Assembly: GCA_018240745.1 (NCBI GenBank)
Contig: JAFEFF010000184.1
Coordinates: forward strand, 1-64,000
DNA: 64,000 nucleotides
Reading direction: 5' to 3'
Source: Pseudomonadota bacterium
Lineage (GTDB): Bacteria; Pseudomonadota; Alphaproteobacteria; Reyranellales; Reyranellaceae
The notes under the pieces were generated by a model. The model saw nothing but the letters and a program-made list of their open reading frames with translations. It did no database searches and was not told the origin of the DNA. The translations under genes and the position numbers were made by a program. Below, one piece after another: positions 15,323 through 34,464 of the stretch; position 1 is the stretch's first letter, and every line of letters begins with the position of its first letter.

Positions 15323-15955
15323 CTATGGCTTCGGCGTGGGCTGTTCCGTCTTCGGCGGCGGCGCCGGAGTATCGGGAGGCGGTGCCGGCGCCGGCGACGG
15401 TGACGCCGGAGCGGCAGCCGGCGGAGCGACAGCTGGCGGAGCGGCGGGCGCCGGAGCAGCGGGTGGCGCCGGCGCCGTTCGGCCCATGATGACGATCGGC
15501 TCGCCCTCCTTGTAGACCGGCGCCTTGCGCAACTGCTCGCGGGGCAAATCGGCAATCAGCCTGTCGGGAGGACCGCTGTCGGGAAAGTGCAGGATGTGCC
15601 AGTCGACGGCGATCTTGCGGCTCCCCACTCCGAGGAACCCGCCGAAGTCGATGATCGCCGCTTGCACCACGCCGCCGCGATCGACGATGACGTCGACGAC
15701 ACGGCCCAGATCCTCGCCCTTTGCGGTCCGCACCGGCTTGCCGAGCAGGGTTTGGGCCTGATTGTTGTCGACGACCACGGCCGGGGTTTCGGTAGCAGAA
15801 GGCAGAGGCTTTGCCGGGCTCGGGGCTTCCGCGGGTTTGACTGGAGCTGCAGGAGCCGGCGGCGTCGCCTGCTGGGCGAGGATCGCCTTTGCCGGGGTCG
15901 CCAGCGCGATGATCAGGCAAAGACGCAGAAAGAAAGCGGGCGCTGGTCGGGACAA
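15323..15955 (-). CDS. exported PRC-barrel protein with Pro/Ala-rich tail
   Basis: A 210-residue protein with a signal peptide (FFLRLCLIIALATPAKAILA), then a Pro/Ala-rich spacer, then a PRC-barrel (about residues 65-150: LLGKPVRTAKGEDLGRVVDV and FGGFLGVGSRKIAVDW), then a low-complexity tail of Ala, Pro and a few Ser (about 160-210). It should be periplasmic or envelope-attached. The tail could span or bind peptidoglycan, but this is inference. It sits 72 bases after the polyketide synthase and 12 bases before the MFS gene, all on the same strand. Confidence 0.82.
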   Translation of the reverse strand: MSRPAPAFFLRLCLIIALATPAKAILAQQATPPAPAAPVKPAEAPSPAKPLPSATETPAVVVDNNQAQTLLGKPVRTAKGEDLGRVVDVIVDRGGVVQAAIIDFGGFLGVGSRKIAVDWHILHFPDSGPPDRLIADLPREQLRKAPVYKEGEPIVIMGRTAPAPPAAPAPAAPPAVAPPAAAPASPSPAPAPPPDTPAPPPKTEQPTPKP

Positions 15956-16027: not shown

Positions 16028-19000
16028 CTAGTCTTTCACAGGTGCCTTCGCGCGGCAGCGCAGGATGCGGTACTGCCACGCCGCAGAGCGCATCTGCTCA
16101 TAGACTGTCGACCCGGGCACGGCGAGGAAGTTGTCGATGCTGGCATCGGCTGCACCGAAGGCCTTCGCCCGCGTCGCGGCCACCAGATCGCACGAGGCCA
16201 GGACGTTGGCTGTGATTTCCCTGTCGTCCCGCAACTCGAAGCGCAGAGATGCCAGCAGCACGCGGACCTCCGCCCAGCGCTGAACCGGCAACAGGTCGGT
16301 GTAGAGGAAGAGCCCGCCGGGCTTCAGCACGCGTCGAACCTCCACGAAGAAGCCGCGGAGGTTCGGATATGTGTGTGAGGATTCCACGTTCGTCACGACA
16401 TCGAACGACTTCTCCTTGCAAGGGAGCTGCTCGGCATCCCCGACTTCGAAGCGCAGATTCGGGCTACGATGAACCCGCCGGCAGAACGCAACCGCTTCCG
16501 GCGCCAGATCGACACCGGTCGCCTTGGCGCCGAACTGTTCGGCCAGCAGCGCAGCAGTGCCGCCACGGCCGGAGCCGACGTCCAGGACGCGCTTGCCCTT
16601 CAGCCTGGTCTTGCCCAGCAGCTCATAGACCAGCCGCACCGAACTCGCGTTCAGCAGGCCCTCGGCGACGTCGTACTGGGCGTCGTCTTCCCCGCCAGTG
16701 CTGACATAGCCGTAGTTGAGGAAGAACGACGCGTCACCGACGCCCGACTCCTCCAGCCGACGCGTGATGCCGTTGTAGAATTCGCGGAAGCTTGCCTTGG
16801 CAAGGGCACCCGGCGTGGTGTCGTCGGCTTCGCTCGCCGCTCGCGCGGATGACGCCTCGACGGCCGGCGCCAGCGCAGCGGACTGCTGCGCGGGCGTTGC
16901 CATCGCAGCCGCTGTCACCTTGCCTCTGTTCTGGTCGATGATCTCCGCGAGCTGTCGAACGGTCGGCGCCTGGAACAGACGCAGCACCGGCAGCTCGACC
17001 TGGAAGGTGTCGCGGATTTCCGAGCAGACCTGCACGGCAAGCAGCGAATGACCGCCGAGGTCGAGGAAGCGGTCATGCACGCCAACGGTTTCGAGGCCCA
17101 ACTGCTCGGCCCAGATCGCGGCAAGGCCGCGCTCGGTATCGCTGTTCGGCTCGACGAACGGCGTCGACAGATTCGGGCGGGGATGGCGCATCGCGCCGGC
17201 TCGCTTCGATTGGGCCGCCCCGTCTCCCCGGCGCACCCAGTCGCGCAACCGATCGTTCAGGTCGTTGACGACGACCAGCCCGCGCGGCCCGATCTCGGAA
17301 CCCAGCAGACGCAGGAATGCCTCGGCCCCTTCGACCGGAAAGATTGGCGTCGGCATACCTTCCGTCGCCGCCTCCAGCGCATTGTCCCAGGCATCCCATC
17401 CGATGCTCAGCCAGCGTTCGCCGCCTGCCACGGCGTATGCATCGAGCACTGCGTTGGCCCCCGCGTAAGCGCCGAGCCCCAGACCGCCGAGCACGCTCGA
17501 GATCGATGAATGCAGGATCCATCGTTTGGGCTCACGGCCCTTCATCGCCTCGAACAGATAGAGCATGCCCCGCAGCTTGGGCGAGAGATGGGCCTCGACC
17601 ACCGCCGGTCCCGTCTCCGCCACCGAGGCGAAGGCGTCTGCATCGACCCGGCCTGCGCCATGCACGACCACGTCGATGGCACCGAACCGCGCGATCGCCG
17701 CATCGACCGCCGCTTTCACCTGTTCGGGCCGGTTGAGGTCGGCGTTGATCACCATGATCTCGTCCCGTGTTTCGCGCATACGGGCAAGGCGTCCCAGGAG
17801 GCCGCGTCGGTCGGCCGGCAAGTTCGTGTCATCGGCCCGTTCGGCCCATTGTGCCGGCTCGGGCAGCGCGCCGCGTCCCAGCAACACCACACGGGCATGA
17901 AGTCGCGCGAACATCTGTTCCGCGAGATTGAGGCCGATATGTCCCAAGCCGCCGGTGATCAGCACGACCGGCTGCGGTGGCATTGCGACCGGGACGCCGA
18001 CCGCGTCGATCGGCGTCTGTTCATAGGCTTCGACGTAGCGCGTGCCATTCCGTAGCGCCACGACAGGCTCGAGCGCGCCGGCCGCCAGTTCGTCGACAAG
18101 CTGCATGCCAATGCCGTCGCTCCCGTCGACATCGACATGCGCCAGGCGCAGCCCGGGATGCTCCTGAGGGATCACCTTCGCCACGCCGAGACCGAAGGCG
18201 CGCACCGGATCCATCCGGTCGCCGGAATCGACCTGTGCCGTACCGCGCGCGACCAACAGCACTGGCAGCGGGCGCCGGGTGGGCTGGCCGCTGAGCGCAT
18301 GCGCAAAACGCATCGGAGCCAGACAAGAAATCGTCGCCGAGGTGTCGAGGTCCGTGTCGCCCGGTGATGCGGCGCTCCAGCAGTCGACCAGGCCGGCGAG
18401 CTGGCTGTCGCCCTGGCAGACCTCGGCACAGAGCCGGCCAAAGTGATCCGATTGCGCCGCATCGATCGTGAACACATCGTCCTGGAGGCGCGCGAAGTCC
18501 GCCGCACGGCGCACGACGATGGGCAAGCCGCCACGCTTCTTCAAAGCCGCCGCCACTGCGGCCGCCACGCCGGTTCCCTCGTCGAGGATCAGTATACGGC
18601 TTTGTGACAAGTCGGCCGCGGCCTCCTGCTCGAGCGGCGCGGCCCGCCAGCCGGGCCGATAGAACCACGATTTGGGATCACGCAGCTCGTGGCGAGCGCC
18701 GTCGGGTCGCGGTCCGATCCAGTAGCTGCGACGCTCGAAGGGATAGGTCGGAAGCGGAATGCGACGGCGCCGCTCCGTCGCATGGAAGCCCTTCCAGTCG
18801 ATCGCGACGCCGTTCGCCCACAGGGTACCCAGCATACCGAACGCGGCCTGCCCGGCGGACCGGCCGTCGTCGGCGCCCGGCAGCGAGGCGACGCAGGTCG
18901 TCTTCGGCTCGCCTTTCTTGCCCAGGGTTATGCCAGCGAATGTGGTCAAGGCACGACCTGGTCCGACCTCGAGAAACAAGGGATTGGCGCCGGCCGGACT

Positions 19001-21391
19001 TTCTTTCGCCGAGACGCAGCGCACGGCATCGGCAAAGCGCACGGCGGACCGAAGCTGCTTGCTCCAGTAGACCGGATGTGTGACGGCCCCGTCCGCCCAC
19101 CGGCCGCTCAGGGTGGACACGAACGGAATCGAGGGTTCGTGCAGGCGAATCGATGCAACGCACTCCTCGAAGTCGGCCAGGATCGGATCCATCATCGACG
19201 AGTGGAAAGCGTGCGAAGTGTGCAGCCGCCGCGTCGCAAACTTCTTCTCGGCCAACGTCGCGTCGATCTTCGCGATCGCCTCCGAAGGACCCGAGAGAAC
19301 GGTGAAGCCCGGCGCATTCACCGCGGCAAGCGAGACATCCTTGTCGAGGAAACGCTCGACGGCCTCGGCCTGCGCCATGACGGTCAGCATCGACCCGCGG
19401 GGCATGGAGCCGATCAGTCGACCGCGACGTGCGATCAGGAACAGAGCGTCATCGAGCGACATCACGCCGGCCAGCGTGGCGGCGACGAACTCTCCGACGC
19501 TGTGCCCGATCATGGCCGAGGGGCTGATGCCCCATGAGCGCAGCAACTCGGCGGTGGCGTATTCGACGACGAAGATCGCCGGCTGTGCCCATTCGGTATT
19601 GAGCAGCCGGTCGGCCGCCTCGGCGCGCTTGCGCTGCGACGGGAAGAGCAGGCCGCGCAGATCGACCCCGACATGGTGCTTCAGTACCTTCGCGCAGTGG
19701 TCGATCGACCGCCGGACGACCGGCTCCGTCTCGTAGAGCTCCGCGGCCATGCCCGGATATTGAGAACCTTGGCCCGGGAAAGTGAACACGATCGGCCGGG
19801 CCGTCTCGGCGACCGCAGAGATCGCCTGGGCGGGATCGCGCAGACCGGCGATCGCGGCTGCGCGATCGTCCGAACGCACGACCAGGCTTCGCCGGTAGCG
19901 GAACGCTCGTCGGCCGACATGCTGAGTGAAGGCCACATCCGCGAGATCCGACGTCGGATGACCTTCGAGATGGTCCGCCAGACGGCCGCAGGCCTGGTCG
20001 AGCGCATCGGCGCTGCGGGCGGAAACCGTGAGAAGCTGGTAGGGGCGGCGTTCCGTCGGCGGGTCTACTGCCGGCGCTTCCTCCACGACGAGATGGGCGT
20101 TGGTGCCGCCAACGCCGAACGAACTCACCCCGGCCCGCCTCGGATGGCCGTTGCGTTCCCATGGATAGAGGTGCTGCGTCACGAAGAACGGGGTCGACAC
20201 GAAGTCGATCGCCGGATTGGGCTGCCGATAGTGGACGGTCGGCGGGATGGCGCCGTGCTCCAGCACCAGCGCCGTCTTGATCAGGCCGGCGACACCGGCC
20301 GCGCATGACAGGTGGCCGAAATTGGACTTCACCGATCCGATCGCGCAGAAGCCGCGCTCTCGCGTGTGTTCTCGGTAGACATCGGTCAGCGCCGACAGCT
20401 CGATCGGATCGCCGATGATCGTGCCCGTGCCGTGCGCCTCGACATAGCCGATGGTCGCCGGCGAGATGCCCGCAGCGGCGAGCGCCGAACGCACTGCGCT
20501 TGCCTGCCCCGGCATACCGGGTGCCGTGTAGCCGGCCTTGTCGCTGCCGTCGTTGTTCAGGCCGACGCCCAGGATCACGGCCCGCACGTTGTCGCCGTCT
20601 GCCAGCGCCGCGGCCAACGGCTTCAGCACGACCAAGCCGACGCCGCTGCCCACGATCGTGCCCTGCGCCTCGGCGTCGAACGGCCGGCAATGGCCGTCCG
20701 GCGAAAGGATCGAGCCCGGTGTGTAGAAGTAGCCGCCCCGTTGCGGCACGCGCACCGTCACCCCGCCGGCCAGCGCCATGTCGCAGCGTCCGGCATGCAG
20801 CGCATCGCAGGCCATCGAGACGGCGACCAGGGAAGTCGAGCAGGTCGTCTGCACCACCACGCTCGGCCCGCGCAGATTGAGCCGATAGGAGACCTGCATG
20901 CAGAGATGGTCTTTGTCATTGGTGACCATCAGCTGCATGCCGTCGAGGTAGCCGAGCGTCTCGCGGTTGAGGAAGAGCTGGTACTGATAGGTACTCTGCT
21001 CGCATCCCCCGAACACGCCGATCGAGCCGGGAAACACCGACGGGTCGTAGCCTGCATCCTCCAGCGCCTCCCAGCTTGCCTCCAGGAACAGGCGATGCTG
21101 CGGGTCGGTCAGGGCCGCGTCGCGGGCCGAGAAGCCGAAGAACTCGGCATCGAATTCATCGACGCGTTCGAGGACGGGCGATGCCCTCACATAGCCGGGG
21201 AGTCGCCAGACGTCGGGCGCGACGCCGCAGGCCCGCATGTCCTCCTCGCTGAGCGAGGCGATCGACTCGACGCCGCGCGCCAGGTTGTTCCAGAAGGAGT
21301 CGAGGGTGTCGGCGCCGGGGAAGCGCCCGCGCATGCCGATGATCGCGATCGGCTCGAACTTCCTCGGCAGGTGTCCGTTCCCCCGCGGCAT
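16028..21391 (-). CDS. single-module type I polyketide synthase, KS-AT-KR-ACP-methyltransferase
   Basis: A 1787-residue multidomain enzyme. The ketosynthase (about 13-438) has active Cys184 in TTCSTSL, His320 in EAHGTGT and His360 in SNFGHL. The acyltransferase (about 535-840) has Ser631 in GHSVG and HAFH at 727-730, the signature of malonyl-CoA selection. The ketoreductase region (about 920-1385) has TGGLGHIG for NADPH and Tyr1309 in GAYAGANAVLDAY. The carrier protein has Ser1449 in DLGGHSL. A SAM-dependent methyltransferase ends the protein (about 1540-1787; VLDVGSGRG). There is no dehydratase, enoylreductase, loading domain or thioesterase. One round would give a beta-hydroxyacyl thioester. 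It is the fifth gene of a compact operon. The product is unknown. Confidence 0.95.
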   Translation of the reverse strand: MPRGNGHLPRKFEPIAIIGMRGRFPGADTLDSFWNNLARGVESIASLSEEDMRACGVAPDVWRLPGYVRASPVLERVDEFDAEFFGFSARDAALTDPQHRLFLEASWEALEDAGYDPSVFPGSIGVFGGCEQSTYQYQLFLNRETLGYLDGMQLMVTNDKDHLCMQVSYRLNLRGPSVVVQTTCSTSLVAVSMACDALHAGRCDMALAGGVTVRVPQRGGYFYTPGSILSPDGHCRPFDAEAQGTIVGSGVGLVVLKPLAAALADGDNVRAVILGVGLNNDGSDKAGYTAPGMPGQASAVRSALAAAGISPATIGYVEAHGTGTIIGDPIELSALTDVYREHTRERGFCAIGSVKSNFGHLSCAAGVAGLIKTALVLEHGAIPPTVHYRQPNPAIDFVSTPFFVTQHLYPWERNGHPRRAGVSSFGVGGTNAHLVVEEAPAVDPPTERRPYQLLTVSARSADALDQACGRLADHLEGHPTSDLADVAFTQHVGRRAFRYRRSLVVRSDDRAAAIAGLRDPAQAISAVAETARPIVFTFPGQGSQYPGMAAELYETEPVVRRSIDHCAKVLKHHVGVDLRGLLFPSQRKRAEAADRLLNTEWAQPAIFVVEYATAELLRSWGISPSAMIGHSVGEFVAATLAGVMSLDDALFLIARRGRLIGSMPRGSMLTVMAQAEAVERFLDKDVSLAAVNAPGFTVLSGPSEAIAKIDATLAEKKFATRRLHTSHAFHSSMMDPILADFEECVASIRLHEPSIPFVSTLSGRWADGAVTHPVYWSKQLRSAVRFADAVRCVSAKESPAGANPLFLEVGPGRALTTFAGITLGKKGEPKTTCVASLPGADDGRSAGQAAFGMLGTLWANGVAIDWKGFHATERRRRIPLPTYPFERRSYWIGPRPDGARHELRDPKSWFYRPGWRAAPLEQEAAADLSQSRILILDEGTGVAAAVAAALKKRGGLPIVVRRAADFARLQDDVFTIDAAQSDHFGRLCAEVCQGDSQLAGLVDCWSAASPGDTDLDTSATISCLAPMRFAHALSGQPTRRPLPVLLVARGTAQVDSGDRMDPVRAFGLGVAKVIPQEHPGLRLAHVDVDGSDGIGMQLVDELAAGALEPVVALRNGTRYVEAYEQTPIDAVGVPVAMPPQPVVLITGGLGHIGLNLAEQMFARLHARVVLLGRGALPEPAQWAERADDTNLPADRRGLLGRLARMRETRDEIMVINADLNRPEQVKAAVDAAIARFGAIDVVVHGAGRVDADAFASVAETGPAVVEAHLSPKLRGMLYLFEAMKGREPKRWILHSSISSVLGGLGLGAYAGANAVLDAYAVAGGERWLSIGWDAWDNALEAATEGMPTPIFPVEGAEAFLRLLGSEIGPRGLVVVNDLNDRLRDWVRRGDGAAQSKRAGAMRHPRPNLSTPFVEPNSDTERGLAAIWAEQLGLETVGVHDRFLDLGGHSLLAVQVCSEIRDTFQVELPVLRLFQAPTVRQLAEIIDQNRGKVTAAAMATPAQQSAALAPAVEASSARAASEADDTTPGALAKASFREFYNGITRRLEESGVGDASFFLNYGYVSTGGEDDAQYDVAEGLLNASSVRLVYELLGKTRLKGKRVLDVGSGRGGTAALLAEQFGAKATGVDLAPEAVAFCRRVHRSPNLRFEVGDAEQLPCKEKSFDVVTNVESSHTYPNLRGFFVEVRRVLKPGGLFLYTDLLPVQRWAEVRVLLASLRFELRDDREITANVLASCDLVAATRAKAFGAADASIDNFLAVPGSTVYEQMRSAAWQYRILRCRAKAPVKD

Positions 21392-21400
21392 GACCTCACC

Positions 21401-22423
21401 CTATGCAAACGACTGGCGATCCGGTTCGGTTGGGCGATCGGTCGCCAGGACTCGAAGAGGGATGTCGAGCGGCGTCTCGCCATGGCCGACGACCCGCAAC
21501 GTTCCGACATGAAGCTTTCCGGGAGCGAGCGCATCGTCGAGGTCGACCGTTACGGTGAGACGACCAACCTGCGCCGGCGCCAGCTCCAACGGATCGGGCG
21601 AGACCGAAATGCGCGCCGGAAAGGCGCCATCGATCCCGTCTGCCCGGCGAAGGTTGCCAGCCTGACAGCGGATCGTGGCCGGTTCGTCGCGGACGTTGTC
21701 GATCGACAGCGTGGCCTGCGCCACGCTGCCCGACGGACCGCTCAGAGTGAGAACGAAGGCTTCTTCGGCAGCCGGCCGCTCGGCCGTGGCGACCACACCC
21801 GACAGATAGTCGTGCTCGATTTCCGCGCGCAGATCGTTCAACTCGGAGAGCAGGTCGAAGTAGAGCATGCCGAGCTGGCGCAGATATTCCGGGAAGCGGC
21901 GCTCGAGATAGCGCCCTGCCAGATCCTTCACCTCCTCCGAGTCGATCCTGCCGCTGGCGACGCGGTCGAGGAAGGATTTGTAGGACGATGAAATGTGCTC
22001 GCCGAGGCTATGGCTGTACTCCGATATCTGGCGAAACCACGCATTCGGCTCCGACGCATCGAGCCTCGGCAACGCCGGAGGCGACGGCATGCCGGGCATC
22101 ACCGCGTCGGCCATCTCCCGGGAATAGGCGGCAGAAATCTCGACGATCCGCGAGAAGAAACGCGTCGTCAGGGTCGTGAAGCGCTCGGCATAGCGGGCGC
22201 CACGCGCCTTGTAGAACGCGCCGAGCGCGTCCTGCATGGCGGTCGGCGGAAGCCGGCCGCGCGACATGGCGTCCGCCACCTTCTGGTAGAGCGCCACCGT
22301 CCGCTCGGATTGCTCCGCGGCGCGGGCGCTGTAGCGCCCATACCAGCTCGACCAATCCGCCGCCCAGGCCGCGGCGTCGGCGGAATTTGCCGCGTAATCG
22401 CGGTCAGCAGCACTCGCAGCCAC
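21401..22423 (-). CDS. hypothetical protein: helical N-terminus plus Ig-like C-terminus
   Basis: About 340 residues with no signal peptide or membrane segment. Residues 20-215 are strongly helical and amphipathic (WAADWSSWYGRYSARAAEQS, then YKARGARYAERFTTLTTRFF), reminiscent of phasins or PhaE-type polymer-synthase subunits. Residues 225-330 form a probable Ig-like beta-sandwich (SPDPLELAPAQVGRLTVTVD). A GTG at 22423 preceded by AGGA is the preferred start, overlapping the upstream gene by 20 bases; the frame is open to a TTG at 22465. The stop is 9 bases before the polyketide synthase start, so translation is probably coupled. I know no named family for it; the phasin comparison is a pattern impression. 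Confidence 0.8.
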   Translation of the reverse strand: MAASAADRDYAANSADAAAWAADWSSWYGRYSARAAEQSERTVALYQKVADAMSRGRLPPTAMQDALGAFYKARGARYAERFTTLTTRFFSRIVEISAAYSREMADAVMPGMPSPPALPRLDASEPNAWFRQISEYSHSLGEHISSSYKSFLDRVASGRIDSEEVKDLAGRYLERRFPEYLRQLGMLYFDLLSELNDLRAEIEHDYLSGVVATAERPAAEEAFVLTLSGPSGSVAQATLSIDNVRDEPATIRCQAGNLRRADGIDGAFPARISVSPDPLELAPAQVGRLTVTVDLDDALAPGKLHVGTLRVVGHGETPLDIPLRVLATDRPTEPDRQSFA

Positions 22424-23126
22424 AGCGGATCCTGAAGGGGTCGCAGTCGCGGGGCAGGATCGCAATGGCGATCCGCAACGGGCGGTGGTCGCATCCGACG
22501 ACCGTGAGATCGGCGATCGCCACGAGACATTCGTCGAGGTCGACGGGTTGACGGCCTTCGCCGGCAGCCTGTGGCGCCCTTACGCGCACGGAAATCGTGG
22601 CCTCCTTCTCGCCGCACGGTGGGATGGTGAAGGCCTTGGGTTCCACGTCGACGGTCTCCACCGGTGCGGCGCTCCCGCCTCTGGTGCGCCACGCACCGAG
22701 CTCGAGGGTGATTTCCTTCTCGCGCCGACGGGGATTGAAAATGGAGATGGGAATCACGCGCTGCTCGCCCGCCCGGGCGTAGACCACGAGGTCGACGTCG
22801 CCGATGCAACACTGGCAGTGGCAATCGCACTCCGGCTCGCACGAACGGCATTCGCGTTCGTGCCAATGGCGATGGTGCCGGTCGCGGTAATGCCAAGGCC
22901 GCGGGATCTCATGCCAGTGCCTGCCGGTCCCGGGTGGGCGGGCGAACATCCCGCCGGGCTGGCCGTATTGCGGGTAGATCATCGCCATCCAGTCGGCAGG
23001 GCGCGTGTCGAGCAGGTTCTGGTAGCTCTGGTAACTCTGCCGCCAGGTCGGATAGTACCGATCCAGGTAGTCGGACGGGGTCAGGTTCATCCAATCAGGG
23101 GAATCAGTCCGCGCGGAAGGCATCAT
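22404..23126 (-). CDS. hypothetical His/Cys-rich protein with Ig-like domain
   Basis: 240 residues, no signal peptide. The N-terminus is rich in Tyr and Trp (YLDRYYPTWRQSYQSYQ). Residues 70-89 are His-rich (RHWHEIPRPWHYRDRHHRHW), and residues 93-107 hold seven cysteines, CRSCEPECDCHCQCC. A beta-sandwich-like segment follows (VVYARAGEQRVIPISIFNPR, VEPKAFTIPPCGEKEATISV), and the chain ends CGCECC. The clustered Cys and His suggest metal binding or disulfide cross-links; which is unknown. GAGAGGAG precedes the paired ATG-ATG start. It is the third gene of the operon leading to the polyketide synthase. No family is recognised. Confidence 0.8.
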   Translation of the reverse strand: MMPSARTDSPDWMNLTPSDYLDRYYPTWRQSYQSYQNLLDTRPADWMAMIYPQYGQPGGMFARPPGTGRHWHEIPRPWHYRDRHHRHWHERECRSCEPECDCHCQCCIGDVDLVVYARAGEQRVIPISIFNPRRREKEITLELGAWRTRGGSAAPVETVDVEPKAFTIPPCGEKEATISVRVRAPQAAGEGRQPVDLDECLVAIADLTVVGCDHRPLRIAIAILPRDCDPFRIRCGCECC

Positions 23127-23159
23127 GGTCCCGGCTCCTCTCGAAGGCTCTGTATTCGT

Positions 23160-23993
23160 CTATCGCTTTCCCGACTTCCTTGCTGGCGTGTGCCTGCGTT
23201 CGCTTTGGGGCGCCCGCGCCGGGCGATGCGCGCCCTGCGGAGCAACGATGAAATCGAGATCGGCGGCGAGAATGGCGGTGCGGCCGGAAAAGCGTCGGTG
23301 AGGCGCCAGGCCATCGGGGATCGTGATAGCGAGCTCGAGGCTCGCGGTTTGGCCGGGCGCGAGGCGGAACGCTCCGTCCGTCATGTGTATCCGAAGGTGC
23401 CCGACCACAGGCCCTCGCGAGCCCACGGCGAGGAGTGCCGCAACGATGCCATCGCCGCTCTTCGGCAGTTCCTCGAGCAGCGGGCCGATCACGCGGCCGA
23501 CCGTCCGGGCCTCGGCGAGGTCGTCGTGCAACTCGACGTCAGCGATCCCGTCGATCTCGAAGGGCACGTTGCCGTCGTTGCTCACGTCGACGTGCTTCCT
23601 GATCGTCTCGCCGGGCCGGCCCATCAGCACGAGCGACTTCGGCGCCAGCCGCAAGGCGACGGTTTCCTCGACGTTGAGCACAGCCTCACGCGTCTGGCCC
23701 TCAACCGCCAGGTCGACGGTATATTCGCCCGGCGGCGTGAACCGGTCGAGCGCGATGGCCAGGGGAGCAACGCGCTCCTCCAGCCCGCGAACGACGATCG
23801 GCCGGAAGGCATGGCGCCCGGCAAGGCCCACGAGCTTGCCGGACCTGTCCGACAACGCCATGTGGCGCAGCACGCGGCTCCTAGGGTGAGAGTTGCGCAG
23901 CCGCACGAAACCCGAAAGGGCCGATGGTGGGCCAGACAGCCGGATCGGCTCGTTCGACGCCGACAACAAGGTGACTGACGCGGCGGTGCTCAT
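23160..23993 (-). CDS. hypothetical Ig-like protein
   Basis: 277 residues, no signal peptide and no membrane helix. It looks all-beta: a first segment (about 10-125, with RFTPPGEYTVDLAVEGQTRE) and a second (about 128-245, with APKSLVLMGRPGETIRKHVD and FRLAPGQTASLELAITIPDG). Both have the spacing of Ig-like or NPCBM/COG1470-style sandwich domains. The last 30 residues are basic (RPARAPQSERRHTPARKSGK). GAGGAG lies ten bases before the ATG. It is the second gene of the polyketide synthase operon, 14 bases after the first gene and 33 before the third. The function is unknown. Confidence 0.78.
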   Translation of the reverse strand: MSTAASVTLLSASNEPIRLSGPPSALSGFVRLRNSHPRSRVLRHMALSDRSGKLVGLAGRHAFRPIVVRGLEERVAPLAIALDRFTPPGEYTVDLAVEGQTREAVLNVEETVALRLAPKSLVLMGRPGETIRKHVDVSNDGNVPFEIDGIADVELHDDLAEARTVGRVIGPLLEELPKSGDGIVAALLAVGSRGPVVGHLRIHMTDGAFRLAPGQTASLELAITIPDGLAPHRRFSGRTAILAADLDFIVAPQGAHRPARAPQSERRHTPARKSGKR

Positions 23994-24007
23994 GGCCCCG
24001 CTCTCCT

Positions 24008-24544
24008 CTACGGCTCGAGACGGATTCGCAATCCAGCCCCGCTGGCGGTGCCCGGTTCGCGACGCTCGTCATGTCCGTGGGCATGATGGACATGCGCTGG
24101 CGGCCACGGTGTCTCTTCGCGGGGCATCGTCTGCGGGCGCGGCCCAAGTTCGCTGATGATGGTCTCCTGTTCGCCGGAGAAACTAAAGCCGAAGACCTCC
24201 ACCCCGTAGAGCGTGAAGCCGATCCGGTGTCGATAGGGCTGCCGGATACAAAGGTTCGGCGACTTGCCCGAATTCAGTGTCAGGCACAGGTCGACGACTG
24301 CCGGCTTCAGGTCCACGGCCAGGCTGGAGTCGGTCTTCAAGGGATCGATCGTGAGGTGTGTCGTCGAGTTCGAATTTGAGTTCGAATCGACGTTGGCCTT
24401 CATGTCCGCTTTCAGATCGACCGAGTTCGTCCCTTCGGTCTTGAACGGCTGGGGCAGTTCGAGTTTGACGTCCGCCTTGATATCGTCGAGACCGACGACG
24501 TCTACCGTGGCCGTTGATGTGGAGGTGACGTCTACATCGGCCAT
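24008..24544 (-). CDS. hypothetical low-complexity protein, first gene of the polyketide synthase operon
   Basis: 178 residues. The first 90 are unusual: alternating Val/Asp/Thr/Lys strands (DVTSTSTATVDVVGLDDIKA) with repeated V-D-L-K/A-D units and a SNSNSNSTT run. A more ordinary beta-rich part follows (RQPYRHRIGFTLYGVEVFGF). The tail has a HVHHAHGHD stretch. There is no signal peptide. The repeated short strands suggest a beta-solenoid-like or sticky structural protein, but nothing here is a known domain to me. It heads a five-gene run with gaps of 14, 33, -20 and 9 bases that ends in the polyketide synthase. Confidence 0.72.
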   Translation of the reverse strand: MADVDVTSTSTATVDVVGLDDIKADVKLELPQPFKTEGTNSVDLKADMKANVDSNSNSNSTTHLTIDPLKTDSSLAVDLKPAVVDLCLTLNSGKSPNLCIRQPYRHRIGFTLYGVEVFGFSFSGEQETIISELGPRPQTMPREETPWPPAHVHHAHGHDERREPGTASGAGLRIRLEP

Positions 24545-24858
24545 GCTTTACCCCGTCTCAGGTGTGTTCAAGCATAGGATTGGCGAATGGTTCGCCGCCA
24601 GACAGCGGCAGGACCCTCGCCGCAGCGACAGCATCCTGCACCGAATCTTTTCATGCCATCGAATTCGGCCGTCGCCGACATCGCCGATACAACTATTGCA
24701 GGGCGCGCTGCATGGCGCTCCATTGCTCGAGCCCCATCGACGATGACTAGAGGCAGGATAGCGCACTCGTGAACGGTCGAGTAGATACTTGAGCGACCCT
24801 GAAGGACTGGGGGAACCTGTGATAACAAGGCTCCCGGAAAGTCCGGAGGAGACGGCCG
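24545..24858. other. divergent intergenic region, no gene supported
   Basis: About 314 bases between the polyketide synthase operon (minus) and the amidohydrolase gene (plus). Short open frames exist on both strands but lack ribosome sites and protein-like composition. The region must hold both promoters; I cannot place them with confidence. The right end has the GGAGGAG ribosome site for the amidohydrolase. Confidence 0.5.
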
Positions 24859-25701
24859 ATGCCCATTATCGATTCGCAGGTCCACGCCTACGAGGCGAAT
24901 ACGCCGAAGCGGCCCTGGCACAGCGTGCCGAACTGGCCGCCTCACGTGACCGGCGACGAGATGGTCGCGGCGATGGACAAGGTCGGCGTCGACGGCGCGA
25001 TCTTCATCTCGGCCTTCTCGCTCTATCAGTACGATGCCAGCTACGCGGTCGAAGTGCAGCGCGCGCATCCCGATCGCATGGCGATCGTCAAGCCGGTCGA
25101 TCCCGACGATCCCAAGGTGGCCGACGTGATCGCCGACTGGAAGAAGACGCCCGGCGCGGTCGGCGTCCGCATTTTCCTGCGGGACGAGAATCCCCGCCCG
25201 CCGACCGATCCCGGCTTCGACCGCATTCTCAAGGCCGCCGTCCAAAACGATCTGCCGGTCAATTTCCTGTGCTGGGGCAAGCTCGACGAGGGCGCGCGGC
25301 TGATCGACCGCCATCCCAACGCCCGCTTCATCATCGACCATCTGGGCATCCTGCAGCCGCGCCTGCCGCCGGCGCCACCGCAGCCCTGGGCCGACCTGCC
25401 AAAGGTGCTGGAGCTCGCCAGGCGCTCCAACGTGGTGATCAAGGTCAGCGGCGCCTGCACGCTCTCCAAGGAGCCCTACCCGTTCCCGGACATCTGGGAT
25501 CCGCTGGCGCGGATTTTCGATGCCTGGGGTTTCGAGCGCTGCCTGTGGGGCACCGACTGGACGCGCGCCTCCGCCGTCGTCAACTACGAGCAGGCGGTCA
25601 AGCCGTTCCTCGAGACCAAGCGGCTGAGCGACAGTGAGCGCGCCATGCTGATGGGCGGCGCCTGCGCCAAGGCCTATGGCTGGTCACCGCGCAAAGGGTA
25701 A
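24859..25701 (+). CDS. amidohydrolase family (Amidohydro_2) TIM-barrel protein
   Basis: A 280-residue metal-dependent hydrolase or decarboxylase of the amidohydrolase-2 type. The first-strand motif appears as IIDSQVHAYE, giving a single His rather than a full H-x-H. A barrel His follows in FIIDHLGI and an Asp in LWGTDWTRA near the C-terminal end. Many relatives act on lactones or aromatic acids (2-pyrone-4,6-dicarboxylate lactonase and decarboxylase types). CGGAGGAGACGGCCG precedes the ATG. It diverges from the polyketide synthase operon. The substrate is not known. Confidence 0.9.
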   Translation: MPIIDSQVHAYEANTPKRPWHSVPNWPPHVTGDEMVAAMDKVGVDGAIFISAFSLYQYDASYAVEVQRAHPDRMAIVKPVDPDDPKVADVIADWKKTPGAVGVRIFLRDENPRPPTDPGFDRILKAAVQNDLPVNFLCWGKLDEGARLIDRHPNARFIIDHLGILQPRLPPAPPQPWADLPKVLELARRSNVVIKVSGACTLSKEPYPFPDIWDPLARIFDAWGFERCLWGTDWTRASAVVNYEQAVKPFLETKRLSDSERAMLMGGACAKAYGWSPRKG

Positions 25702-25704
25702 CCG

Positions 25705-25950
25705 TCAGGGCAGGTATGGAGGTGCCGCCATCATACGCGCCACCTGTTGGAGTGACGGCATGGAGGGCAGCGGCTGGTCGACGGACCATAGCGCCGCGGC
25801 CTGGATCTCGAAGGGCTCCAAACGATTCTCCGGTGACAGGCGCCGGTCCGCATCCGCCACGATCACCGCCATGCTCAGGACGGTGACGAGAAGCAGGGAG
25901 GCCGGCTCGAATCGCGAGCGAATTCTCTGCCAGACACGATATATGCCCAT
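25705..25950 (-). CDS. small putative membrane-anchored protein (80-82 aa)
   Basis: A short frame starting MGIYRVWQRIRSRFEPASLL with one probable membrane helix (SLLLVTVLSMAVIVA, about residues 18-33), then a soluble Pro-containing tail. Good evidence for translation is AGGAG six bases before the ATG at 25950. It converges on the amidohydrolase gene with only three bases between stops. The helix is preceded by several Arg residues, so the tail would face the periplasm. No family is recognised. Confidence 0.55.
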   Translation of the reverse strand: MGIYRVWQRIRSRFEPASLLLVTVLSMAVIVADADRRLSPENRLEPFEIQAAALWSVDQPLPSMPSLQQVARMMAAPPYLP

Positions 25951-26200
25951 GGGCAACTCCTAAGGCGCTACCTGCTCGGCCTAGTGCCGTCTCGACGTGC
26001 GGAGCCAGCAAAAAGACCCGTCAGCGACACGGGCCATACAACATCAGCCGCGCAGGTTTCTGTGCTGTTTCTCACCAAGCATTTTCGCGAGCCATTTTCG
26101 GGGCGGGCCCCGGGGCGTGCTCGCCGTCATCAAGCTCGAATAGAGACGGCGGCACCGGGCTGCGGTATCGTTCGAGGAAAGCCTGTTGCGGAGTCCTGCA

Positions 26201-27364
26201 GTGCCCGACACCAGTGTTCCCCAGCCGCTCAGCGTCGCCGACCATGAGCGCGCCATGAGCGAGTACGGCCAGCGCGCCGAGGCACGCGCCTATGCCCTTG
26301 GCAACCGCAGTCCGATTCGACTCGGCGCCGACGGCAAGCTTCTCCCGGAGATCCTGGAGTCGTACTGGACGAACGGCTTCTACGTCTTCCAGGGGGTGGT
26401 CGGACCGGAAGAGCTCGCCGAGTTGCGCGCCGACATCGACGCGGTTCTGTCGCGCGCACCGGTCGCGCCCGACGCGACAGTCGACTTCCGCGGCCGGCCG
26501 GTGGTCGACCACGGAATCATCAAGCCGCCCTATCGCTGGGCCAGGCCATTGAGCGATCCGGTCGGCGGCACGGACGCCAACAATGGCCGCCATCCCGCCG
26601 AGATGCTGCAGCCCACGCCAGACAAGGATGCGCCCGCCTGGACGGTCGAGCTGCTCGACGGCAACCTCCACCTCAGCGACGCCTGCCTGCGGCTCTACGG
26701 CCATCCCGGCCTGCTGACCGTCGCCGAATCGATCCTCGGCGATGACTTCGTGCCCTACAACGAGGTGACCTTCGTGAAGGAACCGGGCCTCGGCCCATCC
26801 GTCGCCTGGCACCAGGACGGCACGACGCACTGGACCGCACCCGACTGGGATCACGGCGCCCACGGCTTCAACTTCATGACCCAGCTCTATCCCAGCACCG
26901 CGGCGAACTGCGTCTGGGTGCTGCCGGGGAGCCACAAGCGCGGCAAGGCCGACATCAAGAGAATGGTGGCCGACGCGGGCTCCGACCGCATCGACGGCGC
27001 CGTCCCGATGCTGTGCGACGCCGGCGACACGATCGTGACCAACCGCCAACTGGTGCACGGCTCGTTCGCCAACAGCTCGCCCGATCGGCGCATCACCCTC
27101 AATGAAGGCTTCTTCCCGCGCAGGCGCGTGTTGAACGTCACGACCCGCCGCCTCAACGGCAAGATCGAGACCTACGACCAGGCCCGCATCGACGCCCGCA
27201 CGCGCATCCTGCAGATCGCGATCGACGCCCGCCGCCAGCACTTCCCGCAGGAGACGCCCTACACCTACCGCCCGCTCGCCGGCCACGAGGACGAGAACCG
27301 CTGGACCGAGGCGACTCGCGCCACTGTGCTGAAGAACTACAACCAGCTCGACATGTTCATCTGA
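26201..27364 (+). CDS. phytanoyl-CoA dioxygenase (PhyH) family protein
   Basis: A 387-residue Fe(II)/2-oxoglutarate-dependent dioxygenase. The iron ligands are visible as H-x-D in VAWHQDGTTHW and a distal His in RQLVHGSFAN, with a following Arg in SPDRRITLNEG that should bind 2-oxoglutarate. The N-terminal helix region includes LPEILESYWTNGFYVFQGVV. It would hydroxylate a small organic substrate in the cytoplasm. GTG at 26201 preceded by CGGAG is preferred over an upstream TTG at 26186. A small lipoprotein-like gene begins five bases after the stop. The substrate is unknown. Confidence 0.92.
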   Translation: MPDTSVPQPLSVADHERAMSEYGQRAEARAYALGNRSPIRLGADGKLLPEILESYWTNGFYVFQGVVGPEELAELRADIDAVLSRAPVAPDATVDFRGRPVVDHGIIKPPYRWARPLSDPVGGTDANNGRHPAEMLQPTPDKDAPAWTVELLDGNLHLSDACLRLYGHPGLLTVAESILGDDFVPYNEVTFVKEPGLGPSVAWHQDGTTHWTAPDWDHGAHGFNFMTQLYPSTAANCVWVLPGSHKRGKADIKRMVADAGSDRIDGAVPMLCDAGDTIVTNRQLVHGSFANSSPDRRITLNEGFFPRRRVLNVTTRRLNGKIETYDQARIDARTRILQIAIDARRQHFPQETPYTYRPLAGHEDENRWTEATRATVLKNYNQLDMFI

Positions 27365-27368
27365 TGGT

Positions 27369-27671
27369 GTGGGCGTGACTTCCGCGCGCGCCCTGCTCCC
27401 GCTGCTGATCGCGGTCGGCTGTGCGACACAGCCTCCCGGGCCTTGGCAGAAGCCGGGGGTCGACGAGCCGACGTTCGCGCGCGACACCGCGAGCTGCCGC
27501 AGCGCCGCCCAGGCCGCAGCACTCCGAAGTTACCCCTCCAGTGGCGGACCCGCGGGCGTCGGGGCGGCCGGCGCGGTCGCGGCGCAGCAGCGCGACACGG
27601 CCGGTCGCGCCGCGGTCGAAACGGCGCGGTTCAACGCCTGCATGGTCGAGAAGGGATACCATCGCGCCTAG
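27369..27671 (+). CDS. small putative lipoprotein (100 aa)
   Basis: A 100-residue protein with a hydrophobic export signal and a Cys at residue 18 (LLPLLIAVGCATQPPGPW) that resembles a lipoprotein cleavage site, although the -3 position is Ala. The mature part has a Gly/Ala-rich stretch (GGPAGVGAAGAVAAQQ) and two further Cys, in ASCRSAAQ and FNACMVEKGY, which could form a disulfide. The C-terminal FNACMVEKGY motif is common in small proteobacterial envelope proteins. GTG start, five bases after the PhyH stop. Confidence 0.72.
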   Translation: MGVTSARALLPLLIAVGCATQPPGPWQKPGVDEPTFARDTASCRSAAQAAALRSYPSSGGPAGVGAAGAVAAQQRDTAGRAAVETARFNACMVEKGYHRA

Positions 27672-27770
27672 TGCAGGTTCGCCGGCCGTTCTTGCTTGGG
27701 GGATTTCGCTGCGCCGGCCCGCTGTCTTTTGCTAGAACGCTGGCGACGTCTTCTTCACGAGAATTGCCAG

Positions 27771-29636
27771 ATGAAATCGCCCACCGTCCTCATCGACCGC
27801 CATCCCGGCCGCTCCACCCAGACGCTCGGCATCGCGCGGGCGATCGGCACCGACCCGGACCTGATTCACGAGCCGTCGGTCGGCGTCGTCGGCACCAAGG
27901 GCGACAGCCAGTGCTACCTGGGCGTCATGGCCAAGGTCGAAGCGATCCACGACAAGCTCAAGGGCCGGATCGGCACCGGCCAGGGCCAGCTGAAGCTGCG
28001 CCTGGTGCAGCCGGAGTACACGGTCGCGATCTCCGACGGCATCCGCAACGGCACGCGCGAGATGCGCTACTCGCTGATCGGCCGCGAGGTGACCAACGAT
28101 TCGCTGTGCGAGCATCTCAGCGCCACCGGCCTTGCCGGCACGATCGCGGTCGTGGCCTGCGACAAGCCGCCGGTCGGCGCGCTGTCGGCCCTGCTCGAGC
28201 ACAACCGGCCCTCGATCATCATGTCGGACGGCCCGATCCATCCTGGCCACGATCCCAAAACCGGCGAGGCGCTCGACATCGTCAGCGCCTACCAGGTCGC
28301 CGGCAACCCCGATGCCGCCTTTCGCGCGCACATCGCCCTTCATGCCTGCCCCGGCATCGGCAGTTGCGGCGGCATGTTCACCTACAACACCATGCAGACC
28401 TTCATCGGCGTGGTCGGCATGGAGCCATTGCACATGGTGGCGCCGCCGTCCGACGATCCGCGCCGCACCAACGAGTTCGCCGCGGAGCTGGTCGACCTGC
28501 TGTCGAACCTGATCGCCAAGGACCTCAAGCCGCGCGACATCGTCGTGCGCGATTCGATCCGCAACGCGGTGATCGTGGCGATGGCGATCGGCGGCTCGAC
28601 CAACGTCACCCTGCACGCGCCCGAGATCGCCCGCGCCGCGGGCTTCGCCGACTTCTGGAAGGACGTCATCACGCCGGAGGAATTCAATTACCTCTCGCAG
28701 CATGTCGTGCCGGTGCTGACCGACGCACGGCCCTACGGCAAGTACTCGATGGTCGACATCGACCAGGTGGGCGGCGTGCAGGTGATCGTGCGCGAGCTGC
28801 TCGAGGCCGGCCTGCTGAACGGCGACGTGCTGACCTGCACCGGCGAGACGCTCAGCAAGCAGGTCGAGCGTCTCGGCACGAAGAAGGCCGACGGCAAGGT
28901 CGTCTACACGGTCGAGAAGCCCTACAAGCCGACCGGTGGCCTGCGCGTGCTGGGCGGCAACCTGTCGCCGGACTTCTCGGCGATCCTCAAGCTCGCCGGC
29001 GTCGAGGGCGGCCTGGAGAACAACATGTTCCGTGGCAAGGCGCGCGTGTTCGAGGGCGAGCAGGCGCTGCTCGACGCGCTCGACAAGACGCCCGAGCGGT
29101 TCCAGAACCACGACATGGTGATCGTGCGCTACGAGGGCCCGAGCGGGGCGCCCGGCATGCCCGAGATGCTCGATCCGACCTCGCGCATCACCACGCTGTG
29201 CCGCGAGCGCAACATCATCGTCGCGCTGATGACCGACGCACGCTTCTCCGGCGGCTCGGTCGGCCTGGTGATCGGCCATGTCGGCCCCGAGGCGGCGCTG
29301 GGTGGCCCGATCGCCTTCATCGAGGACGGCGACGAGATCGTGGTCGACCTCGACAAGAACGAGCTCTCCTGCACGCCGCTCGCCGATGCGGCGACCTTGG
29401 CGAGGCGCAAGGCGGCGTGGGAGAAGATCGTCGCCAATAACGGCGGCATCCATCCCAACTGCGGCGTGGCCGATACCCGCCTGCTCCACCGCGCGCGCAC
29501 GACCGCCGTGCCGGCGACGCGCGGCGGCGGCCTGCATCCCGACCGCGAGGTCTGGGTGCGCGCGCCGCGCAAGGCGGAGCGGTCGAAGTTCGTGCTCAGG
29601 AACAAGCACCGGCCGCAGGCGAACAAGACTTTCTAG
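27771..29636 (+). CDS. IlvD/Edd family dehydratase
   Basis: A 621-residue iron-sulphur dehydratase of the family that includes dihydroxyacid dehydratase, 6-phosphogluconate dehydratase and sugar-acid dehydratases. Markers are the Cys of TKGDSQCYLG, the HACPGIGSCGGMFTYNTMQT motif carrying cluster cysteines, and RFSGGSVGLVIGHVGPEAAL with EDGDEIVVDL in the C-terminal barrel. It removes water from a 2,3-dihydroxy or sugar acid. The ATG at 27771 matches the family start. Its TAG stop is immediately followed by the ATG of the HpaB-type gene. This pairing makes a catabolic rather than a branched-chain biosynthetic role plausible; the exact substrate is not known. Confidence 0.92.
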   Translation: MKSPTVLIDRHPGRSTQTLGIARAIGTDPDLIHEPSVGVVGTKGDSQCYLGVMAKVEAIHDKLKGRIGTGQGQLKLRLVQPEYTVAISDGIRNGTREMRYSLIGREVTNDSLCEHLSATGLAGTIAVVACDKPPVGALSALLEHNRPSIIMSDGPIHPGHDPKTGEALDIVSAYQVAGNPDAAFRAHIALHACPGIGSCGGMFTYNTMQTFIGVVGMEPLHMVAPPSDDPRRTNEFAAELVDLLSNLIAKDLKPRDIVVRDSIRNAVIVAMAIGGSTNVTLHAPEIARAAGFADFWKDVITPEEFNYLSQHVVPVLTDARPYGKYSMVDIDQVGGVQVIVRELLEAGLLNGDVLTCTGETLSKQVERLGTKKADGKVVYTVEKPYKPTGGLRVLGGNLSPDFSAILKLAGVEGGLENNMFRGKARVFEGEQALLDALDKTPERFQNHDMVIVRYEGPSGAPGMPEMLDPTSRITTLCRERNIIVALMTDARFSGGSVGLVIGHVGPEAALGGPIAFIEDGDEIVVDLDKNELSCTPLADAATLARRKAAWEKIVANNGGIHPNCGVADTRLLHRARTTAVPATRGGGLHPDREVWVRAPRKAERSKFVLRNKHRPQANKTF

Positions 29637-31097
29637 ATGGGCGCGCGGACAGGCTCACAGTTCCTCGAGGGTCTGCGCAAGACCCGGCGGGAGATCTGGG
29701 TCGACGGCGAGAAGGTCGCCGACGTCACCGCGCATCCCAAGCTGAGAGGCGGGGCGCAAAGCGTGGCCGCGATCTACGACCGACAGCACGAATACGCCGG
29801 CGAGTGCCTGTTCGCGGCGCCGCCGTCCGGCGAGCTGACCACCGTCAGCCACATGATCCCGCGTTCCAAGGACGACCTGCGCCGCCGCCATGCCGGGCTC
29901 GTCCGGCTGTCGGAAGGCTCGATGGGCATCATGGGCCGCACGCCCGACTACATGAACATGAAGTTCGCGGCCTTCGCTTCGGCGCCCAAGGTGTGGGCCG
30001 GTGCCGACGGCCGCAACGAGCGCGGTGCCCGCAACATCGTGGCCTACCACCAGTACCTCGCCCACGGCGACATCTCGCTGACGCATACCATCATCCAGCC
30101 GACCATCGACAAGCGCACCGACAGCAAGGTCACCGGCACCACGGCGATGGTGCGCAAGATCGGCGAGACGGCCGATGGCATCATCGTGCGCGGCGCCAAG
30201 GTGCTGGCGACACTGGCGCCGTACGCCGACGAGCAGACCGTCTATCCCGGCCAGCCCCTGCCGGCCGATGCGAAGGAGTTCGCGCTGGCCTTCGCCATCC
30301 CGCTCGACACGCCGGGGCTCAAGTTCATCTGCCGCGACTCGGCGGCGGCACCCGGAGCCGATCCGTTCGACAAACCCCTGTCGTCGCGCTTCGACGAGCA
30401 GGACGCGTTCTGCATCTTCGACGACGTGCTGGTGCCGTGGGATCGCGTATTCATCGACGGCGACGTGCCGATCTACAATTCGATGCGCGAGACCAGCTAC
30501 GCCATCAGCATGACGACGCAGTCGACCATCCGTGCGCTGACCAAGCTCGAGTTCGCCTATGGCCTGGCGACGCGCATGGCCGAATTGATCGGCGACTATT
30601 CTCCGGCGACGACCGAGATGCTGGGCGAGCTGGCGGCCTACGTCCGCCTGACCGCCAATGCGGTCGAGCTGTCGCTCGAGCAGGCGTGGGAGCGCGGCGA
30701 CGGCGTGTGGTTCCCCAACGGCGCCGCGCTCGAGCCGATGCGCTCGATCCTGCCGATGTGGATGCCACGGGTGGCCGAGATCATCACCCTGATCGGCAGC
30801 CATAACCTGCTGACCACGCCCACCCGCAGCGAGCTCGCCGACCCCAGGCTGCGGCCTTTGCTCGACGAGATGCTGCATGGCGCCGACGGCGCCACCGCCG
30901 ACGAGCGGGCCCAGGTGTTTCGCCTCGCCTGGGATTTCGTCGGCTCGGCCCTCGGCGGGCGCGGCTTCCTCTACGAGCGCTTCTACCTGACCTCGGCGTC
31001 ACGCAACAAACAGATGCTGCACACGCGCTTCTTCGACCGGACGCGTTCACAGGCCCTGCTCGAGGACATGCTTTCGCGGGGCCGCCGCGCCGATTGA
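29637..31097 (+). CDS. 4-hydroxyphenylacetate 3-hydroxylase (HpaB) family protein
   Basis: A 486-residue flavin-dependent hydroxylase of the acyl-CoA dehydrogenase fold. Recognised from RTGSQFLEGLRKTRREIWVD at the N-terminus, MGRTPDYMNMKFAAFA, HTIIQPTIDKRTDSKVTGT-type flavin region, and DDVLVPWDRVFIDGDV. Family members add a hydroxyl to phenols using reduced flavin from a partner reductase; no reductase is seen next to it. The ATG directly abuts the preceding TAG stop (TAGATG), so its translation probably depends on the dehydratase gene. The substrate may be aromatic or another cyclic compound. Confidence 0.92.
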   Translation: MGARTGSQFLEGLRKTRREIWVDGEKVADVTAHPKLRGGAQSVAAIYDRQHEYAGECLFAAPPSGELTTVSHMIPRSKDDLRRRHAGLVRLSEGSMGIMGRTPDYMNMKFAAFASAPKVWAGADGRNERGARNIVAYHQYLAHGDISLTHTIIQPTIDKRTDSKVTGTTAMVRKIGETADGIIVRGAKVLATLAPYADEQTVYPGQPLPADAKEFALAFAIPLDTPGLKFICRDSAAAPGADPFDKPLSSRFDEQDAFCIFDDVLVPWDRVFIDGDVPIYNSMRETSYAISMTTQSTIRALTKLEFAYGLATRMAELIGDYSPATTEMLGELAAYVRLTANAVELSLEQAWERGDGVWFPNGAALEPMRSILPMWMPRVAEIITLIGSHNLLTTPTRSELADPRLRPLLDEMLHGADGATADERAQVFRLAWDFVGSALGGRGFLYERFYLTSASRNKQMLHTRFFDRTRSQALLEDMLSRGRRAD

Positions 31098-31173
31098 CTC
31101 ACCCTCCGTGAGGCCGTCGAATACCGGCCGCGACGATCCCGGCCACGACGGCCACGCGCACGGAGGAACATCG

Positions 31174-31935
31174 ATGTCATTCTACCGAGGCATGACCTGC
31201 GAGAACGTGACCCTCACAGGCGACAAGGGCACGCCGATCACGGCCTACGTGGCCAAGCCCGAGGGCTCGGGCAAGTTCCCGGGCGTCGTGCTGATCCATC
31301 ATCTGCCGGGCTGGAGCGAGCTCTACATCGAGACGACCCGCCGCTTCGCCCATCACGGCTATCTCGCGATCTGCGCCAACCTCTACCAGCGTGAGCAGGG
31401 CGGCGGCAGCGACGCCAATCCCGACGACGTCGCGGCCAAGGTGCGCGCCGACGGCGGCATCGCCGATTCACAGATGGTCGGCGACACGGCGGCCGCGGTG
31501 GCGTGGATGCGGGCGCATCCCAACAACAACGGCAAGGTCGGCCTGTTCGGCTCCTGCTCGGGCGGCCGGCACGCCTTCATCTATGCCTGCCAGAAGAAGG
31601 ACGTCGATGCCTGCGTCGAGCTGTGGGGCGGCCGCGTGGTGATGGGCAAGGAGGAGCTCAACGCCAAGACGCCGGTCGCGCCGATCGACATGACCAAGGA
31701 CCTGCAATGCCCGCTGCTCGGCCTGTTCGGCAACGACGACCGCGCACCCAGCCCCGAGCAGGTGAACCAGCACGAGGCCGAGCTCAAGAAGCTGGGCAAG
31801 AACTACGAGTTCCACCGCTACGACGGCGCCGGCCACGGCTTCTTCTACTGGCACCGCCCGCTCTACCGGCCCGAGCAGGCGATGGATGGCTGGAGCAAGG
31901 TGTTCGGCTTCTTCGGCAAGCACCTGGCGAAGTAG
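31174..31935 (+). CDS. dienelactone hydrolase family protein, cytoplasmic
   Basis: A 253-residue alpha/beta hydrolase. Nucleophile Cys is in GLFGSCSGGRHAF, Asp in LFGNDDRAPS and His in GAGHGFFYW, the usual triad. The N-terminus MSFYRGMTCENVTLTGDKGT is not a signal peptide, unlike the copy at 7015. CGGAGGAACATCG precedes the ATG. It lies between the HpaB-type gene and a DUF6295 gene on the same strand, so it could open a lactone from the same pathway. The substrate is not known. Confidence 0.92.
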   Translation: MSFYRGMTCENVTLTGDKGTPITAYVAKPEGSGKFPGVVLIHHLPGWSELYIETTRRFAHHGYLAICANLYQREQGGGSDANPDDVAAKVRADGGIADSQMVGDTAAAVAWMRAHPNNNGKVGLFGSCSGGRHAFIYACQKKDVDACVELWGGRVVMGKEELNAKTPVAPIDMTKDLQCPLLGLFGNDDRAPSPEQVNQHEAELKKLGKNYEFHRYDGAGHGFFYWHRPLYRPEQAMDGWSKVFGFFGKHLAK

Positions 31936-31944
31936 GAGAGACGC

Positions 31945-32250
31945 ATGTGCACCTCCATCATCGAGATCGCCGCCGCCGAAGGCATGGCCAAGCGCGGCGA
32001 CGAATGGTTCCCGCTCACCCAGTCGGTGGTCGCCTATGACCATGCCCGCCATGCGCCGCTGGGCGACGTCATCACGCTCGACTTCTTCAACACCGCGCTC
32101 GATCCCGGCGCGCGCGCCGCGGTCGAGCTGACGCTCGACTCGGCCAAGGCGCTGCGGGCCGCGCTCGACCGGGCGATCGCCGCAGCCGACTACGAGGAAG
32201 CCGAGGTTCGCGGCAAGGGCGCGCCGCTCAGTCTCGTCCGGGCGGCGTGA
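31945..32250 (+). CDS. DUF6295 family protein
   Basis: A 101-residue protein with the start MCTSIIEIAAAEGMAKRGDE, then WFPLTQSVVAYDHARHAPLG and DVITLDFFNTALDPGAR. This pattern matches DUF6295, which I recall from catabolic gene clusters; its biochemical role is unknown. A conserved Cys at residue 2 and several His/Asp residues (AYDHARH) could bind a metal. Its stop overlaps the GTG start of the hydantoinase A gene (GTGA at 32247-32250). Confidence 0.8.
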   Translation: MCTSIIEIAAAEGMAKRGDEWFPLTQSVVAYDHARHAPLGDVITLDFFNTALDPGARAAVELTLDSAKALRAALDRAIAAADYEEAEVRGKGAPLSLVRAA

Positions 32251-34319: not shown

Positions 34320-34330
34320 GCACCGCATCA

Positions 34331-34460: not shown

Positions 34461-34464
34461 TCCG

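Follow-up and report, generated by a model that had tools for sequence, protein, structure and literature searches.

The minus strand of the window, the whole 64,000-nucleotide stretch of DNA that was analysed, carries a run of five genes between positions 24544 and 16028, which code in this order for P1, P2, P3, P4 and a polyketide synthase (PKS) (Table 1). In the open reading frame list, the P1/P2, P2/P3, P3/P4 and P4/PKS gaps are exactly 14, 33, –20 and 9 bases, respectively. The longest open reading frame of P4 opens at a TTG codon at 22465; alignment places the start of its homologues at the GTG codon at 22423, and so the 20-base overlap with P3 is correct. Five minus-strand genes with just these gaps had been described in the original prediction for this DNA, and both the open reading frames and the start alignment bear this out. 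The GC content by codon position (1/2/3) is coding-like for all five genes, and purine-rich sequences of the ribosome-binding type precede P2, P3 and the PKS gene. The pN/pS values range from 0.20 to 0.45 across the five genes, indicating that all of them are under purifying selection. The promoter of the cassette is likely to lie in the intergenic region upstream of P1, in which no consensus promoter was found. On the other side of this region, a divergent plus-strand run at 24859–36102 of the window codes for an amidohydrolase, a PhyH dioxygenase, a member of the dihydroxy-acid dehydratase family, an HpaB hydroxylase, a dienelactone hydrolase and hydantoinase B, and is catabolic-looking.

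Table 1. Positions of the cassette genes and associated features in the window.
Feature	Coordinates	Strand	Remarks
P1	24008–24544	–	178 aa; open reading frame with homologues in L031–L035, L133 and L134; no Pfam family
P2	23160–23993	–	277 aa; open reading frame; weak Pfam hints below cut-off
P3	22404–23126	–	240 aa; open reading frame, structure model, homologue alignment
P4	21401–22423	–	340 aa from GTG; start set by homologue alignment
PKS	16028–21391	–	1787 aa; Pfam and NCBIfam matches, motif conservation
PKS methyltransferase region	16028–16900	–	in cassette PKSs; missing from the nearest other PKSs
Intergenic region, P1 to divergent amidohydrolase gene	24545–24858		likely promoter site

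The single-module synthase

Pfam assigns to the PKS the domain order KS-AT-KR-ACP-MT, in which MT is a C-terminal SAM methyltransferase, the same order as in the original prediction; no DH, ER or thioesterase is found among its Pfam matches. The active-site triad of KS consists of C184, H320 and H360. The AT domain has the GHSVGE motif with S631 and the malonyl-type HAFH motif at residues 727–730. An HAFH motif in AT denotes malonyl-CoA. The KR domain has the NADPH motif TGGLGHxG and the S-Y-N residues in ISS..LGGLGLxAYxxxNA, and the ACP domain has a GGHS motif. With the active sites of KS, AT and ACP intact and the NADPH and S-Y-N residues of KR present, the PKS has the features of a type I modular PKS with a single module. 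The KS triad, the AT, KR and ACP motifs and the SAM motif of MT are kept in the relatives wherever the region is available, with the exception of one KR pattern that has no match in L133.

The PKS MT scores 152.8 bits against NF045823 (phthiotriol dimycocerosate O-methyltransferase; cut-off 300) and 138.5 bits against NF045825 (fatty-acid O-methyltransferase Mtf2; cut-off 400). The mycobacterial fatty-acid O-methyltransferase gene fmt provides a precedent, its product methylating the lipid moiety of glycopeptidolipids (PMC1885439). Because these are the best family matches of MT, and in view of the fmt precedent, beta-O-methylation by the PKS MT may reasonably be inferred, methyl-ester formation being the other option. 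MT relatives also occur in Pantoea and Erwinia (L072, L073 and L085); the one examined, L073, belongs to a separate and unrelated cluster, which also encodes an Irp3-like reductase and a thioesterase.

Within the cassette group, the PKSs are about 60% identical or more; the full-length PKS of the window is 60–61% identical to those of the other cassettes, and its KS-AT part is 73% identical to that of an Anaerolineales copy. The nearest PKSs outside the group are 42% identical and lack MT. Judged by sequence identity, the cassette PKSs form a discrete group. A phosphopantetheinyl transferase is encoded elsewhere in every host tested, and therefore a local one is not needed; its absence near the cassette, pointed out in the original prediction, is correct and yet not telling.

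Properties of P1–P4

The original prediction recognised no enzyme motif in the four upstream proteins. In agreement with this, none of P1–P4 matches a family over the cut-off in Pfam, NCBIfam, PHROGs or PADLOC, and no library match thus identifies any of them as a known enzyme. Nor do they have a signal-peptide-like or membrane segment, the maximum Kyte–Doolittle average over 19 residues being 1.4, which bears out the earlier claim that signal peptides are lacking; P1–P4 are thus predicted to be cytoplasmic. For the proteins tried, plasmid and viral collections contain no relative, P3 giving only BcsB matches with E values of 0.6–0.9.

P1 consists of a low-complexity, beta-rich N-terminal part, a conserved core (D-L-K-P..V-D-x-C ... 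Q-P-Y ... G-x-E-x-x-G-F-x-x-S-G) and a His-bearing tail. P2 is probably an Ig/Fn3-like beta protein, as Pfam hints at fn3_5 in four of six members (best E value 0.0074, below the cut-off) and also at NEW3. The structural model of P3 shows a confident PapD/ASH-like Ig sandwich at residues 110–229, with Z scores of 8–10 (best 9.8). The N-terminal part of P3 is modelled with low confidence and contains a His/Cys cluster, and its C-terminal end is Cys-rich; with 15 Cys residues, 12 of which are invariant in eight homologues, P3 is the protein to which the previously noted His/Cys cluster belongs. The model of P4 (pLDDT 80) consists of four long helices followed by an Ig sandwich, and the helices are two tandem copies of one hairpin (hhalign E value 4.9e-8). 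The Ig sandwich of P4 matches PapD-type chaperones and MSP domains with Z scores of about 11 over roughly 91–113 residues, the best match being 3q48 (Z 11.3); the fold lists are filled by this domain, and so the search barely probes the helical part. A viral fold search gave weak matches only, mostly of Ig-domain length. In profile–profile comparison, the Ig parts of P3 and P4 are weakly linked (E value 8.7e-4, probability 23%), and P2 is linked to neither. Of the three Ig-like sandwiches originally predicted, those of P3 and P4 are shown by the models, whereas that of P2 is hinted at by the weak Pfam matches.

Recurrence and distribution of the five genes

When some 85,000 species genomes were scanned with a KS piece, six loci emerged at 78–84% KS identity, below which identity falls to 60% or less; a genome scan with a P3 piece gave no match. 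All five genes are present in a Proteobacteria MAG (L031), Luteibacter yeojuensis (L032), Luteimonas marina (L033), an Acidobacteria MAG (L034) and a Lysobacterales MAG (L035), all from the KS scan. Together with a further complete cassette (L133, in G842), found when 247 Acidobacteriota genomes were searched by profile, they make up six further loci. Gene-neighbourhood comparison had been named beforehand as a possible refutation of the association, and the genes stay together in these six loci, across phyla. In the other full loci, P4 and PKS lie on one strand and are convergent with P2-P1-P3, unlike the tandem order of the window, and thus P4-PKS and P1/P2/P3 are two sub-units, placed in tandem or convergently. 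The tightest pair of the cassette is P4 and PKS, whose spacing ranges from –4 to +15 bases across all eight loci, one of which is in an Anaerolineales MAG (L030).

Taken as a set, these loci have no gene beyond the five in common with the window. The flanks include a transhydrogenase/alanine-dehydrogenase gene in L035, a phosphoketolase gene in L031 and a DUF2264 gene in L034, and, judging from the appearance of the translations, the DUF2264 and sulfatase-type flanks of L133 correspond to those of L034. The L035 cassette appears to be inserted within a pyridine nucleotide transhydrogenase operon (flanks at 7285–8436 and 18881–20537). In L. marina, a phosphopantetheinyl transferase is encoded about 9.5 kb upstream of the cassette (G458:C12:296254–296487), beside an acyl-ligase-like gene; this region is probably a separate pigment cluster.

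In the Anaerolineales MAG, P4-PKS runs off the contig end. A separate contig of this genome (L134; G455 contig C287, 1–3570) carries a diverged P1-P2-P3-P4' quartet in the gene order of the window; the quartet immediately follows the part coding for the C-terminal end of an AMP-binding enzyme, with PKS not within reach. P4' is short and has a single hairpin, and P1 and P3 are 50% and 44% identical, respectively, to those of the window, closer than the gammaproteobacterial copies. This suggests either that the quartet can serve another acyl enzyme or that contig C287 continues the PKS locus. Both the cassette of the window and the L134 quartet are followed downstream by a gene whose start is PRC-barrel-like (15323–15955 in the window, the copy compared with Pfam, and 5403–6062 in L134); this gene is unseen in the other cassettes, and its presence in both is probably a coincidence.

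The distribution of the cassette is sporadic. P4 is found in none of 36 other genomes of the genus, and among 398 genomes of the phylum a convincing match is limited to the window's own genome, single-protein searches of these 398 with P3 and P4 giving noise or one doubtful 36% match. No P3 relative is found in 46 other genomes carrying the next-nearest PKSs. Carriers number 2 of 348 genomes in the order of Luteimonas (Lysobacterales), 3 of 197 in the family of the L031 host, 2 of 247 in Acidobacteriota and 1 of 201 in Chloroflexota. Two carriers, Luteibacter yeojuensis SU11 and Luteimonas marina FR1330, are isolates, and therefore mis-binning cannot explain the cassette, which is experimentally accessible in them. 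The cassette occurs sporadically, keeps its gene content, comes in two arrangements and is flanked by different genes in distant lineages; horizontal movement of the five genes as a unit best accounts for this pattern.

Possible role of the cassette and comparison with known systems

The single-module synthase is inherited with four dedicated non-enzymatic proteins, the five genes forming a conserved, selected and transferable unit. The usual reading of a small PKS cluster starts from its enzymes; in this one, four families without a library match accompany a single synthase clade in different phyla, and therefore P1–P4 are very likely to be part of what the synthase does. The PKS would extend an acyl starter with malonyl-CoA, KR would reduce the beta-keto group and MT may O-methylate the beta-hydroxyl group, resulting in a beta-hydroxy or beta-methoxy acyl product. 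P4 may dock on the PKS or its lipid product through the helical hairpins and present its Ig domain, and the Cys/His-rich Ig protein P3, P2 and P1 would assemble on P4 to form a cytoplasmic scaffold or coat holding the synthase, its product or both. A horizontally spread cassette, in which the PKS would make an acyl product and P1–P4 would form such a scaffold or coat, is the best explanation, with a chance just short of even. A more tentative hypothesis is that the cassette represents an undescribed class of protein–lipid assembly, in which a transferable set of genes would combine the lipid of a one-module synthase with a four-protein cytoplasmic coat or organelle-like particle. A coat or scaffold, if it exists, would give bacteria a new means of organising the intracellular synthesis of lipids or polyketides. 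As for the cytoplasmic assembly or coat of the original prediction, its would-be components are non-enzymatic by all the libraries searched, include two or more Ig-like proteins, have a predicted cytoplasmic location and remain associated with the synthase in different phyla; the coat or particle and the product go beyond these observations. Against the coat, MSP/PapD-like Ig domains are found in many unrelated contexts, the PKS has no thioesterase or other release domain, and the Anaerolineales quartet lies on a contig apart from PKS, and so a strict need for PKS is not proven.

P1–P4 may instead be accessory or adaptor proteins for substrate loading, carrier-protein docking or product hand-over, with no coat or particle. 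P4 always adjoins PKS, the AMP-binding enzyme adjoining the Anaerolineales quartet is perhaps acyl-activating, and the missing release domain is also in keeping with such a role; however, four such proteins, one with 12 invariant Cys residues, are much for docking, and none of P1–P4 resembles a known PKS adaptor. An adaptor complex is possible rather than probable, and nearly as likely as a coat or particle. The absence of a thioesterase and the invariant Cys residues of P3 raise the further alternative that P3 or P1 accepts the acyl chain, the ACP-bound product passing to cysteines to give a lipidated protein. This is improbable, since the cassette has no transferase and the P3 cysteines are arranged in C-x-C and C-C clusters, which would be more typical of metal or disulfide sites.

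Still less probable, and largely refuted, is the hypothesis that P4 is a phasin and that the cassette decorates polyhydroxyalkanoate (PHA) granules. P4 has helical hairpins as phasins do, and one of seven members matches Phasin_2 (PF09361), at 12.2 bits (E value 0.22) against a cut-off of 24.9, but its hairpin is duplicated and joined to an Ig domain, which is not a phasin feature. PhaC_N is over the cut-off in the window's genome (G000), but PhaC gives no match over it in the six other hosts covered by the test (G455–G460). The sub-threshold match and these six hosts make a PHA-granule link unlikely; the helices of the phasin-like part originally predicted are real, whereas the likeness to phasins comes down to that one match. 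Finally, a chance neighbourhood of four genes unrelated to the synthase, for which the separate contigs in Anaerolineales might speak, is refuted by the six further five-gene loci in two arrangements, with different flanks in distant lineages.

No published account of such a cluster was found in the literature searched; the enzyme is of a known kind, and neither the four partner families nor their constant linkage to it has a description in those papers or in the libraries consulted. The PKS MT has its best family matches in the phthiotriol/phenolphthiotriol and fatty-acid O-methyltransferases, but it reaches about half or less of their equivalog cut-offs and is fused to a PKS. P3 and P4 share the Ig sandwich fold with PapD-type chaperones and MSP/VAP domains, but at 20% identity or less and with the Ig domain fused to helical or Cys-rich parts. 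A chaperone–usher system was rejected: despite the PapD-like fold, there is no export signal, and usher and pilin genes are missing from the conserved set. Encapsulins and bacterial microcompartments resemble the proposed coat in concept, as protein assemblies associated with an enzyme; this identity was rejected as well, as P1–P4 have no HK97 or BMC match in Pfam or PHROGs, P3 and P4 being Ig-like instead. The swf clusters, which contain a mono-modular type I PKS/FAS (PMC3908369), are likewise compact and widely shared clusters with a one-module type I PKS and an unknown product. In sponge symbionts, the swfA product has the order KS-AT-DH-ER-KR-ACP and is partnered by a reductase/sulphotransferase together with a radical SAM enzyme (PMC3908369). 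Identity with swf was rejected because the domain order and partner genes differ: the cassette PKS lacks DH and ER and adds a C-terminal MT, and its partners are four non-enzymatic proteins.
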